64,000 bases of DNA from Paenibacillus silviterrae (GTDB lineage Bacteria; Bacillota; Bacilli; Paenibacillales; NBRC-103111), in contig NZ_JASKUT010000001.1 in assembly GCF_030167925.1 (NCBI RefSeq), positions 1,736,001 through 1,800,000 of the forward strand. Reading direction: 5' to 3'. Positions 33,435-38,713 of the stretch are shown one piece after another. The number at the start of each line of letters is the position of its first letter. The stretch's first letter is position 1. A program made the translations under genes and the position numbers. A model generated the notes under the pieces. The model saw only the letters and a program-made list of their open reading frames with translations. It was not told the DNA's origin and searched no databases.

Positions 33435-33547
33435 ACCCGTTTCATCCTCCAAGATTCGTGCTATCCGCCCGCATGACTGGAACACCAGTTCCCGATTCTG
33501 CGGGCGTCTCTTTCATTATAGCACGAATTGATAGAGTGCACTCGTTT

Positions 33548-35763: not shown

Positions 35764-36726
35764 TTATATCGTTTCTTTTGAAAATTTCTTTTTTTCTCGT
35801 TTGGCGATAGATAAATAATGCTTCAATTCCATCAACAGCTGCAGCAGTGCCGAACGTACCTCGAACTCCTCCCGTGTGGCCGGAAGCGCCGTTTGCTTGA
35901 ACCTGCTCTCCAATTGGAGCAGCAGCTGTTCGGCTCTGCCTGTGTAATAATCCACGAATACGTCCTTCGAAAGCTCCTCAAAAACATTCGCCAACAGCTC
36001 TCCGTGCGAAAGCGTCTGATAGACCTGAGCGACCAAAGGAATCATCCGGTCGACCGATTCCATTTGCTGTTTGCGCATACTTATGTAGGTAGACCAGGAA
36101 TCGGTTTCCCCGAACCACAGCGTGTTTTCGTTTGAACGTTGGGCGGCTTTCCAACCGTCCTCCAAAAGGTCATGTGCGAGCAGCAGCTCGTTTCCGTCCC
36201 AGATGTGCGCCGTATTCCTTAGATGTCCCGCAATCTCCGTGAAAATTCGTGAAAAGCAGTATTCCAACCGCTCCTTCAGCCCGGCGAGACGCTTGTCCTC
36301 CTTAGGCATATAGCTAATATTAATCAGCGTTGCCGTACCGAGACCTACCAGGAGCAGGCAAACCTCATTCAGGATCAGATGAGGATCCACGCTTTCCGCG
36401 GCGAACAGATGAAACATGACTACCGAGCCGGTAACCGCGCCCTCCCTTAACTCCAAACGACTCAGGATGGGAAATAAAATTAGAAGAAAGAGCCCGATGA
36501 CCCACACCTGAAACCCGAACACGTAAAATAATAATGCGGCTATCAGCAAGCCTAGAATTGAAGCCGCTAAGCGCTGAAGCGAGGTGCGTAAGCCTCTTCG
36601 TTTCGTCACGTCCACACCCAGGATTGCCAGGAGACCGGAGGAGAGCGGCGAATGAAGACCCAATGCTTGTGAAATGAGAATGGATATAACGACAGCCAGT
36701 GCCGTTTTGATGACTCGGAAGCCCAT
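35764..36726 (-). CDS. YqjA-like aromatic acid exporter family membrane protein
   Basis: 320 residues. The first ~140 form four or more membrane helices (VIKTALAVVISILISQALGL, LLIAALLFYVFGFQVWVIGLFLLILF, ILNEVCLLLVGLGTATLINI) and belong to the ArAE_1 (DUF939) family. The rest is a soluble helical cytosolic domain. Length and layout match B. subtilis YqjA. The substrate is not known; family members export aromatic carboxylates in other bacteria. The ATG at 36726 follows AAGGGGG by 6 bases, and the longer open frame upstream (to 36858) has no membrane character. Confidence 0.85.
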   Translation of the reverse strand: MGFRVIKTALAVVISILISQALGLHSPLSSGLLAILGVDVTKRRGLRTSLQRLAASILGLLIAALLFYVFGFQVWVIGLFLLILFPILSRLELREGAVTGSVVMFHLFAAESVDPHLILNEVCLLLVGLGTATLINISYMPKEDKRLAGLKERLEYCFSRIFTEIAGHLRNTAHIWDGNELLLAHDLLEDGWKAAQRSNENTLWFGETDSWSTYISMRKQQMESVDRMIPLVAQVYQTLSHGELLANVFEELSKDVFVDYYTGRAEQLLLQLESRFKQTALPATREEFEVRSALLQLLMELKHYLSIAKREKKKFSKETI

Positions 36727-36858
36727 AGATGTCCCCCTTGCTGAGGCAAGTACGTAAAATAAGGTAAGTATATTGTACCTATTGTAATCAGAATTGCTTC
36801 TTAACGCTATAGTTTGTGGAGTATGTTGCTCTATCGTCCTGCCTTCCTTTTTAACCAC

Positions 36859-36877
36859 TATCCCCTTTGATCAGGAA
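36859..36877 (+). repeat. Locus-specific motif, copy A (forward)
   Basis: TATCCCCTTTGATCAGGAA. Outermost left copy of a motif found four times around the transposase-like gene at 37108-37998. The region 36727-37107 holds no other gene. Downstream of this copy, CAGGAAGA and TCTTCCTG, and TATCCCC and GGGGATA, form two overlapping inverted repeats. Confidence 0.7.
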
Positions 36878-36988
36878 GATTAGCCGGGGGGATATGCCGA
36901 AAGTTGCCCGTCTTCCTGCTGTTTACTGCACGGCCTGTCAGTTATCTTGTGGGTATTTCATTACAACTCAGTATTCCGTGAAGGGGTC

Positions 36989-37007
36989 TATCCCCTCTAT
37001 TCAGGAA
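36989..37007 (+). repeat. Locus-specific motif, copy B (forward)
   Basis: TATCCCCTCTATTCAGGAA, 16 of 19 identical to copy A and 130 bp from it. It forms the right arm of a stem-loop (ATTCC/GGAAT, TGAA/TTCA, GGGG/CCCC; 36973-37008) that ends about 30 bases upstream of the promoter. Confidence 0.7.
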
Positions 37008-37038
37008 TGAAAAATATTTTGAATTTGGAACATTTCTC

Positions 37039-37067
37039 TTGTAATAGGAACATATGTTCTGTATAAT
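37039..37067 (+). promoter_or_regulatory. SigA-type promoter with LexA (SOS) box in the spacer
   Basis: -35 TTGTAA (37039-37044), exactly 17 bases, -10 TATAAT (37062-37067). The spacer holds the perfect 12-bp palindrome GAACATATGTTC (37048-37059), which matches the Gram-positive LexA/DinR operator core GAAC-N4-GTTC. LexA bound here would block the promoter. The start codon of the transposase-like gene is 41 bases downstream. Confidence 0.8.
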
Positions 37068-37107
37068 ATAAGTTAATTGAAACATTAGCAACGGGAGCGG
37101 ATTCGAT

Positions 37108-37998
37108 ATGAAGCAAGAGCAAACCGAAAACCTTCAGCAGCTTCTTGAACATTTTGAAAATACGACTTCCAGCTCGGAGCTTTTATTTCAGCTCAAATGG
37201 CCCGGGGGGTTCGTCTGTCCCCGCTGCGATCATCGATACGCTTATACCATCTCCACCAGAAAGCATCCGCTCTTTGAATGCGCACACTGCAAATATCAAG
37301 CCTCCCTTACCGTAAATACGATTTTTGAAGGCAGTTCAACGGACTTATCCAAATGGTTTGTTGCTTTATATTTATTTTCGACCGATGAAGGTACTACCGC
37401 CGTTCGACTTCAGCGTACTATTCATGTTACTTACAAGACAGCTTGGTTAATGCTTCACAAAATACGTTTTGCTGCAGGCCATAAGGATGCTCAACAACTA
37501 TTGTCCGGTGTTGTGCGTATAGGCGCTGCCTTCTATGGGCGTTCGTTCCATTCTTCCTACGAAGGACATCCCGAGGAGCACCCTATTCTCATCGGAAGCG
37601 GCACTTCATCACAATCTCCTCATGAGCCTGGCTATATCAAAATGCGGGTAGTATCCAAAGAACATATGCATCACCGCAGAATTCTCCGTTCAGGCACTCA
37701 CGCCTTTTTGAAAAAAGAAGTCGCTCCCGCTACAGAGGAAATTCGTACGGTCACCGAGCGCTACAGCGAGCACCGATTTGTCCATCTGATCAAACACGTC
37801 CTTCACGCAAGCAAGTGGATCAACCGAACCTTTCATGGTCTCGGGCGCAAGCATCTGCAAGCTTATTTAAACGAGTTCTGCTATCGCCTTAACTTCGAGA
37901 ACACTTCAACTCAAGAGGAAAGCCTGATGAGTAATTTGCTGCGCTTATGCTTTCATTCCCCTAGGATTACCTATGCTTGCCTGACAAAGCGAAGCTAG
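37108..37998 (+). CDS. IS1595-type transposase-like protein lacking catalytic residues
   Basis: 296 residues, intact frame, clear RBS (GGGAG, 10 bases). The N-terminal zinc ribbon is complete (Cys37-x2-Cys40, Cys58-x2-Cys61), followed by the helical segment VTYKTAWLMLHKIR of IS1595/ISXO2 transposases and the C-terminal signature TFHGLGRKHLQAYLNEFCYRLN. But the catalytic positions are changed. The usual V-E-V-D-E-T-Y reads V-R-I-G-A-A-F (Asp to Gly139), T-D-G reads R-S-G (Asp to Ser195), and the S-N-x-K segment reads as H-A-S-K-W (Asn to His233). It cannot be an ordinary active transposase. An SOS-type promoter and flanking repeats suggest a kept, DNA-binding role; this is inferred. Confidence 0.82.
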   Translation: MKQEQTENLQQLLEHFENTTSSSELLFQLKWPGGFVCPRCDHRYAYTISTRKHPLFECAHCKYQASLTVNTIFEGSSTDLSKWFVALYLFSTDEGTTAVRLQRTIHVTYKTAWLMLHKIRFAAGHKDAQQLLSGVVRIGAAFYGRSFHSSYEGHPEEHPILIGSGTSSQSPHEPGYIKMRVVSKEHMHHRRILRSGTHAFLKKEVAPATEEIRTVTERYSEHRFVHLIKHVLHASKWINRTFHGLGRKHLQAYLNEFCYRLNFENTSTQEESLMSNLLRLCFHSPRITYACLTKRS

Positions 37999-38168
37999 AG
38001 GTTATCCTCTCTGCCATGCCATCGCGTGATTGGTCTAGAGATAGTTTCCTCATTCACCTAAACATCATTTTATGGTAAGAAGCTTTTGTTGTTTCCATCC
38101 TTCGCACAGCAGCGATCATTCCTGAACAATGGGGATGAGACCCATTCACCGTCGTCTTAGCTAAACGT

Positions 38169-38188
38169 TTCCCTGAAGCAAAGGGATA
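38169..38188 (-). repeat. Locus-specific motif, copy D (inverted, diverged)
   Basis: Minus strand reads TATCCCTTTGCTTCAGGGAA, the same motif with one base missing in the C run and two added in the right half. It is the weakest of the four copies. Confidence 0.45.
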
Positions 38189-38272
38189 ATAAGACAGACT
38201 TCCGAGAGTCCAGTAGGTGGGGGTTTGGGGCCAACAGCAGCAAAAAAGCAACCCAGTCTGCGGTCATATTCT

Positions 38273-38291
38273 ATCCTGATAAAAGGGGATA
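38273..38291 (-). repeat. Locus-specific motif, copy C (inverted)
   Basis: Minus strand reads TATCCCCTTTTATCAGGAT, 17 of 19 identical to copy A, in opposite orientation. It lies inside a larger hairpin whose outer arms are CGGTCAT (38261-38267) and ATGACCG (38292-38298). Confidence 0.7.
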
Positions 38292-38349
38292 ATGACCGGA
38301 AGGGAAGCTCAGACCCACAAAGCTTTCGTGCCATCCATTTCTTTACATA

Positions 38350-38372
38350 CAAAAAGGCCTCCAATGAGGCCT
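38350..38372 (-). terminator. Terminator of the fad operon
   Basis: Minus-strand AGGCCTC/GAGGCCT stem, ATTG loop, then TTTTTGT. It lies 17 bases after the SCP2 gene stop. Confidence 0.9.
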
Positions 38373-38389
38373 GCAAATCAGCTCACAGC

Positions 38390-38713
38390 TTACCTTTTAT
38401 ACTGCTTTAGCACCTCCTGAAGCTTCATGGCAAGGCTTAAATTACCGCCGATTTTGAGCGAACCGGATAGGAAGGCTTTCATTGCGTTAAGCTCGTTGTT
38501 TAGCAGCTTCATAAGATTGGCCGTCGTCAAGGTCAAAGTGCAATCCGCCAAATACGGCGTGCCCTCCATCACTTCCACTGTGCCCGATCGAAAACGTACC
38601 TGTAATATTTCCGCATCCAGCTCCAGCTGGTAAACGGACTGCAGCGGACGAATCGGATCGGGATTCTCATTCATTCGATCGGCAAGCTGCTGTAATCGCT
38701 CCTTCACGTCCAT
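38390..38713 (-). CDS. SCP2 sterol-carrier-domain protein
   Basis: 107 residues, a stand-alone SCP2 domain (VYQLELDAEILQVRFRSGTVEV, DCTLTLTTANLMKLLNNELNAMKAFLSGSLKIGGNLSLAMKL). Such domains bind acyl-CoA or other lipids in a hydrophobic tunnel. It is the last gene of the leftward fatty-acid degradation operon, 3 bases after the thioesterase gene, so handling of acyl-CoA intermediates is the likely role. No membrane segment or signal peptide. Confidence 0.85.
   Translation of the reverse strand: MDVKERLQQLADRMNENPDPIRPLQSVYQLELDAEILQVRFRSGTVEVMEGTPYLADCTLTLTTANLMKLLNNELNAMKAFLSGSLKIGGNLSLAMKLQEVLKQYKR

Follow-up and report, generated by a model that had tools for sequence, protein, structure and literature searches.

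The IS1595 family is defined as insertion sequences of the D-D-N type, and GAAC-N4-GTTY is the Gram-positive LexA box. Among described systems, REPtrons combine a tnpA-REP (RAYT) gene with REP/BIME repeats (Corneloup et al., 2021, PMC8266576); that paper describes TnpA-REP as a tyrosine enzyme of the HUH type, mostly present in single copy, whose substrates for cutting are single-stranded REPs. LexA-controlled transposases are described for ISCR1, ISCR2, and ISCR8, and the consulted part of the source also names IS10, with Tn5 as a disputed case (PMC13393415). No prior report of an IS1595/LexA/repeat system such as the present one was found among the listed matches in the open-licence literature; by term search, the available text of PMC3733652 and PMC12306157 did not name Paenibacillus, and that of PMC3733652 did not name IS1595.

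The window, which is the whole 64-kb stretch of DNA analyzed here, belongs to a 7.4-Mb genome. It carries a gene for a nuclease-dead IS1595-type protein, preceded by a LexA-type operator and bordered by inverted repeats (Table 1). A sequence-only reading of the window had described a promoter at 37039–37067, with TTGTAA and TATAAT 17 bases apart and a palindrome filling the spacer. The coordinates agreed: the spacer (37045–37061) comprised 17 bases, 12 of which were the palindrome GAACATATGTTC. The bare string GAACN4GTTC was weak evidence, since it occurred three times in the window against 0.98 expected and nine of 100 shuffles reached three. At 33480–33491, GAACACCAGTTC overlapped the GTG at 33485 that is listed as the start of an ORF resembling mutS (named by eye); it may be a chance match, or it may be an operator, the true start possibly lying elsewhere. 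A Rfam search of 36700–38400 found no structured-RNA family.

Table 1. Features of the studied locus (positions in the window)
Feature	Position	Strand	Evidence
REP-like repeat copy 1, CTATCCC-N6-TCAG	36858–36874	+	0 mismatches
REP-like repeat copy 2	36988–37004	+	0 mismatches
−35 element TTGTAA	37039–37044	+	read from sequence
LexA-type operator GAACATATGTTC	37048–37059	+	sequence; conserved in homologues; same type before lexA
−10 element TATAAT	37062–37067	+	17 bases from −35
Gene for nuclease-dead IS1595-type protein, 296 aa (ATG at 37108)	37108–37998	+	Pfam, alignment
Zinc ribbon, residues 24–64	37177–37299	+	C37, C40, C58, C61 invariant in 66 rows
Helical, probably DNA-binding region, residues 80–129 (VTYKTAW.ML.KIR)	37345–37494	+	alignment, model
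RNase H-like core without catalytic acids, residues 131–270	37498–37917	+	G139, T214 at D positions
REP-like repeat copy 3, degenerate	38119–38137	−	2 mismatches
REP-like repeat copy 4	38173–38189	−	motif match
REP-like repeat copy 5	38276–38292	−	motif match

The operator was conserved upstream of homologous genes. Two sets of homologous loci were used, one of 80 loci (80 of 478 relatives, among the matches listed) and one of 90 loci (window included); they share genomes, for example at L010 and L234, and thus their counts are not independent. A box was defined as GAACN4GTTY or RAACN4GTTC within 250 bp upstream. It was present at 76 of the 80 loci and at 79 of the 90, and the counts dropped to 0–3 in both sets when the half-sites were set 1–3 or 5–9 bases apart instead of four. 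Elsewhere in the loci of the 80-locus set, 27 of 1574 windows held a box. Among the first 50 homologous loci (the window's own locus counted), 37 had a box within 150 bp upstream, against background rates of 0.8% in 5000 shuffles and 1.3% in 836 other windows of the loci. Short proteins of at most 180 aa (L016 and L055; L236, L242, and L263) were excluded from the alignments, and their promoters were still counted. The sequence-only reading had proposed operator conservation in homologues as a check, and this conservation, confined to gap 4, places the operator beyond chance; it is decisive for the reality of the box. Many homologues were preceded by paired boxes ~22–32 bp apart, and the window gene had one box. 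No tandem box pairs at one fixed spacing were found in its own genome.

The lexA gene of the source genome begins ~0.5 kb before the start of the window (G000:C1:1735471; LexA_DNA_bind, 100.9 bits) and 37 kb from the studied gene. Four boxes were found upstream of it, AAACATTTGTTC, GAACAAATGTTT, GAACTCATGTTT, and GAACTCCGGTTC, and GAACAAATGTTT recurred letter for letter upstream of homologues. The window box matches this type, as the earlier assignment to a Gram-positive LexA-type operator had proposed. From the operator, we infer that LexA binds there and that DNA damage induces the window gene. The region upstream of lexA (G000:C1:1735368–1735665), with several boxes, is common to a divergent 132-aa ORF, which we take to resemble yneA. 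A second, short LexA-like DNA-binding domain (47 bits) was encoded at L061 on a 44-kb contig (G000:C3:18842–21964), with GAACAACGTTC (gap 3) upstream; this protein is possibly a mobile element's own repressor.

The protein matched the IS1595 zinc ribbon PF12760 (E 3.5e-12, 46.5 bits; cut-off 25.4). The DDE domain PF12762 was matched by its last third only (profile positions 99–153), with 27 bits, at the cut-off. This domain was full length in L295 and L303, and four scanned non-intact proteins showed its C-terminal part or nothing. The window protein had neither a full DDE domain nor the catalytic D-D-(N/E/H), as G139 and T214 occupied the D positions; the sequence-only reading of a catalytically changed IS1595-type gene was therefore correct. 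Among 64 non-intact rows, compared with two D-D-N rows, N was the commonest residue in the column of the first catalytic D (12% acidic), and I was the commonest in that of the second (0% acidic). Over residues 128–255 of the same 64 rows, column 168 was the sole mostly acidic one, and it was missing in the intact rows. In the 80-locus set, 72 rows had no D at the first catalytic position (three unaligned rows among these), six had D at the first position and not at the second, and two were D-D-N; 78 of the 80 loci were thus classed as non-intact for the repeat counts.

The zinc ribbon, the helical region, and the C-terminal helices were the best conserved parts, and the core was the least conserved. 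The mean frequency of the top residue was 0.70 for residues 30–75, 0.64 for 76–130, 0.62 for 231–262, and 0.38 for 131–230. The catalytic residues have thus been lost and the protein has been kept. An AlphaFold2 model (pLDDT 92.2, pTM 0.89) aligned by its core with transposases and retroviral integrases (VIA-align: Hermes Z 8.8, ISCth4 8.3, integrases ~7), and the best Foldseek match had an E value of 3.5e-3. These modest scores for a model indicate a common fold only, and no solved structure was credibly related by sequence. No HUH family was found among the Pfam matches of the protein up to E 1. Residues 16–140 matched phrog_25593 (unknown function; E 7.8e-27), so relatives of the DNA-binding half occur in some phage set. 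A role as a defence system was also considered and rejected, as two proteins gave no match to the PADLOC models.

The flanking inverted repeats, which the sequence-only reading had missed, are the larger finding. In the window, YTATCCC-N6-TCAG gave seven matches against 1.32 expected, and none of 100 shuffles gave as many; outside the flanks of the gene there were just two matches, each with three mismatches. The surroundings of copies 1 and 5 could pair through 34-nt arms with 76% complementarity. The same arrangement was found throughout the order, at the non-intact loci (78 and 78 in the two overlapping sets). Within 1 kb upstream, YTATCCC-N5-YTCAG occurred 52 and 46 times on the plus strand and once and never on the minus strand; within 1 kb downstream, it was never found on the plus strand in either set and occurred 75 and 37 times on the minus strand. 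The totals over 156 non-intact loci were therefore 98 plus and one minus upstream, and 0 plus and 112 minus downstream. The counts of 98 and 112 belonged to a spacer of five bases before YTCAG, and eight other spacers gave 0–1. A looser pattern in 72 rows gave 56 plus and 0 minus upstream, and 0 plus and 61 minus downstream.

The strict repeat was present on at least one side at 61 of 78 and 46 of 78 non-intact loci. Among the 49 loci without it, 24 were examined, of which 17 had a diverged inverted repeat, such as GTTTTAACAATATCCCCTT in Cohnella, and seven had no inverted repeat at that threshold. No strict repeat was found within 1 kb of the 14 intact loci. The intact element L092 ended in GATTATCCAGTTTGCTCAGG, which contained TTATCCAGTTTGCTCAG, a sequence differing from the motif by a single base; a transposon-end origin of the repeats is therefore probable. 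The flanking repeat took clade-specific forms at L112, L114, L118, L119, L254, L262, L304, and L311; that suggests that protein and repeat change together. The gene pair downstream of the window element (named by eye) is kept in the genus with 55–65% protein identity. Stretches from 11 relatives, taken with 1.5-kb flanks, showed neither an empty site of the window element nor any homologue of the gene upstream of it; the corresponding stretch of the window does not extend to that gene.

The repeats were also dispersed through several genomes. Motif copies numbered 156 in G053, 145 in G054, and 137 in G060, with 0 copies of a reversed-pattern control, and 31, 28, and 24 in G071, G089, and G086 (control 0, 1, and 1). 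Genomes without a homologue at E 1e-10 held 2 (G001), 3 (G013), 4 (G085), 0 (G093), and 1 (G096), with 1, 2, 2, 1, and 1 in the control. The source genome had 37 copies, at its three gene copies and at gene-less places, and one control match. The gene carriers G027 and G052 had few copies (21 and 26; control 2 and 1), and many of these are possibly chance matches. In G053, 18 of 20 sites lay outside kept ORFs of at least 100 aa, and the other two were overlapped by short ORFs.

The dispersed repeats occurred as singles, inverted doublets, and arrays. The gene-less doublet L221 consisted of 17 bp, a 22-bp loop, and the inverted 17 bp, and it could fold as a hairpin (z −10.8); other doublets could fold less strongly (z −4.4 to −2.4). 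A hairpin with compensating changes in single G053 repeats, suspected by eye, was unsupported, as the three that were folded gave z values of 0.10, 0.32, and −1.81. Tandem arrays had units of 46 bp (L096) or, by eye, ~80 bp (L220). A further gene-less cluster in the source genome (L214, G000:C1:2892283–2893867) contained an additional direct repeat and two motif copies 268 bp apart with similar surroundings. Among the first 50 listed of the 156 sites in G053, 46 had the majority orientation of their contig, and none of 100,000 simulations reached this value. At the listed sites L155–L174 of this genome, 13/13 were plus on contig C5 and 10/10 minus on C7. The bias was weak in P. oralis (54 sites), not evident in G052, and mixed in G060; a replication-linked orientation was thus rejected as a general rule and is a lead only, being strong in G053 alone.

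Here, we propose, with a probability of about 60%, that the gene is the resident copy of a chromosomal family derived from an IS1595-type insertion sequence, whose LexA-repressed, nuclease-dead protein is predicted to bind and bridge repeats of transposon-end origin upon damage. The conserved operator, the loss of catalytic residues, purifying selection, the single clade, and the flanking and dispersed repeats are established; we infer LexA repression, repeat binding, bridging, and any benefit to the host. Such a family would have arisen, most simply once, from the insertion sequence. LexA would repress the promoter, and DNA damage would open it, judging from the operator. The zinc ribbon and the helical DNA-binding region are kept in the protein, as is the RNase H-like shape of its core, and, having no catalytic residues, it should bind DNA without cutting. 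Its likely binding sites would be the YTATCCC-N6-TCAG repeats around the gene and, in several genomes, elsewhere. Made after damage, it may attach to such sites and bring them together by pairing or bridging, which might mark or fold chromosomal sites and perhaps limit its own promoter.

Synteny between species speaks for a resident gene. Both flanks were common to the orthologues L241/L242, L246/L251, L289/L301, L304/L311, and L312/L313, and L280/L290 shared synteny on one side only. Several observations count against the proposal: 12 of 24 same-genus genomes had no match, making the gene dispensable; many loci had no strict repeat; G027 and G052 had few copies despite carrying the gene; and six rows still had the first catalytic D. 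Cargo of phages was rejected as an explanation, as two phage records matched, with 24 and 27% identity; so was cargo of plasmids, for which all 261 records were below 60% identity and the 15 listed had 27–35%.

A different explanation, doubtful in our view, is that the element is still mobile: the dead protein would bind the ends, cutting would be supplied in trans, and SOS bursts would copy the gene with its repeats. In G060, G054, P. macerans, P. oralis, and C. silvisoli, units ~84–95% alike occupied separate sites. Such recent multiplication speaks for movement, for a mobile rather than a tame element; there were 16 matches in G060. The repeat arrays differ in copy number, the repeat resembles an IS1595 end, and intact IS1595 relatives are both LexA-boxed and mobile. 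In G038, three intact copies were 97.7–98.6% alike from approximately −90 or −103 to approximately +30 and hardly beyond, and all three (L085, L087, and L088) had inverted ends TTTGAATATCAAG with perfect 8-bp direct repeats outside, as recognized by eye. These three near-identical copies are plain mobile elements. The spread of solo repeats requires some enzyme, and this counts against a tame family. However, no DDE_Tnp_IS1595 match (E ≤0.001) started before profile position 68 in G000, G053, G054, or G060, so these four genomes showed no IS1595 nuclease of their own by which the repeats could be moved; full 1–153 matches were found in G038 and G010, which hold intact copies. In addition, in P. 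macerans and P. oralis the repeats do not mark the limits of the homologous unit, no target duplication was recognized by eye at the gene-less doublets, and the search for an empty site, described above, found none.

The sequence-only reading had suggested new recruitment: a transposase-derived gene would have acquired a LexA operator of the host and so entered the damage response, instead of being under ordinary transposon control. The conserved operator over the promoter, purifying selection without catalysis, the chromosomal location with some syntenic orthologues, and the low identity of plasmid and phage matches (all <60%, the best listed 24–35%) are all consistent with it. However, all 14 catalytically intact (D-D-N) loci in both sets also carried LexA boxes (13 when the identical pair L091/L295 is counted once; several are near-identical copies). 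Among 18 intact-type rows from other Bacilli families, many of them fragments, 11 had a box. That suggests that one Bacilli clade of IS1595 elements is under SOS control. In a tree of 75 chosen rows with a single long outgroup, one branch (97/94; 96% of 200 bootstrap trees) set the 56 non-intact proteins apart, so catalysis need have been lost only once. Among seven rows from other families in this tree, L348, L349, L350, L352, and L353 had a box, and L354 (which contains stops) and L358 (distant) had none. Since boxes lie on both sides of the dead-clade branch, the operator is most simply older than the loss of catalysis. SOS control was probably inherited, because intact D-D-N relatives, some of them true insertion sequences, carry boxes; most likely, LexA control arrived as part of the transposon and outlasted its catalytic activity. 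New recruitment is thus improbable, its account of the operator's origin being already contradicted.

Decay was even less probable. Here, the loci would be remnants of insertion sequences with MITE-like leftovers and no present function, which would suit the interrupted or truncated copies (L016, L055, L236, L242, and L263) and the patchy presence of the gene (43 of 99 genomes, own included). However, dN/dS was 0.07–0.29 in all 21 non-intact pairs with finite values (25 hand-picked pairs, of which three were intact and one dead pair had no finite value; a few dS were saturated), and the non-intact proteins are under purifying selection. The operator is kept in nearly all loci, the dead proteins form one clade spread deeply within the order, and the repeats differ by clade; decay is very unlikely. 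It is scarcely credible that the GAAC-N4-GTTY palindromes are sites of the transposase-like protein itself and not of LexA: they are often doubled and are shared by intact and dead members, but some are letter-identical to boxes before lexA, e.g., GAACAAATGTTT, the window box sits between −35 and −10, and the element ends are a different sequence.

Beyond the proposed resident family, we speculated, very tentatively, that Bacilli hold a second, independent REP system. An IS1595 transposon would have lost its nuclease a single time and retained the SOS promoter, giving a damage-inducible DNA-bridging protein; the multiplied former ends, strongly oriented along contigs in one genome (46 of the 50 listed sites), might act as landmarks by which the chromosome is folded, marked, or held in repair. 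If true, a like arrangement built on an unrelated, nuclease-dead fold would mean that the partnership of repeat and transposase evolved more than once. In such a system, the binding of repeats would stand apart from their cutting, and mitomycin C would provide a simple inducible handle on what the repeats do for the chromosome.

Compared with IS1595 elements, the family shares the zinc ribbon, the helical DNA-binding region, the RNase H-like fold, and the C-terminal KHLQ.YLDEF helix, and with close intact members it shares the LexA-boxed promoter. However, D-D-N is gone, and the ends are replaced by one to ten YTATCCC-N6-TCAG copies a side. Inverted repeats are present in the window with several copies a side, and the 8-bp duplication was seen only in intact relatives. 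With regard to MITEs, gene-less inverted doublets were found, and no duplication was recognized by eye. As in the ISCR elements, the transposase promoter is under LexA, here predicted from the operator; the ISCR case concerns a CTGT-N8-ACAG operator and rolling-circle enzymes in E. coli (PMC13393415), whereas here, in Bacilli, a GAAC-N4-GTTY box goes with members of an IS1595 clade and with the dead proteins descended from it.

The closest likeness was to the REPtron, as far as the consulted sections describe it (PMC8266576). In both, a transposase-derived gene with partly vertical inheritance is bordered by short inverted repeats, the repeat differs by clade, and repeats lie scattered in intergenic DNA, alone, in inverted doublets, or in tandem arrays. 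Such dispersed, mostly intergenic repeats were found here, more weakly in the source genome and doubtfully in G027 and G052. Unlike the REPtron, this family has an RNase H-fold protein without catalytic residues instead of an HUH Y1 nuclease, is multicopy in part of the genomes, carries a LexA box, and lacks a GTAG tag. On this comparison, the system looks as if it works like a REPtron, yet it is not a member, because it lacks both the HUH enzyme by which REPtrons are defined and their usual single-copy state.
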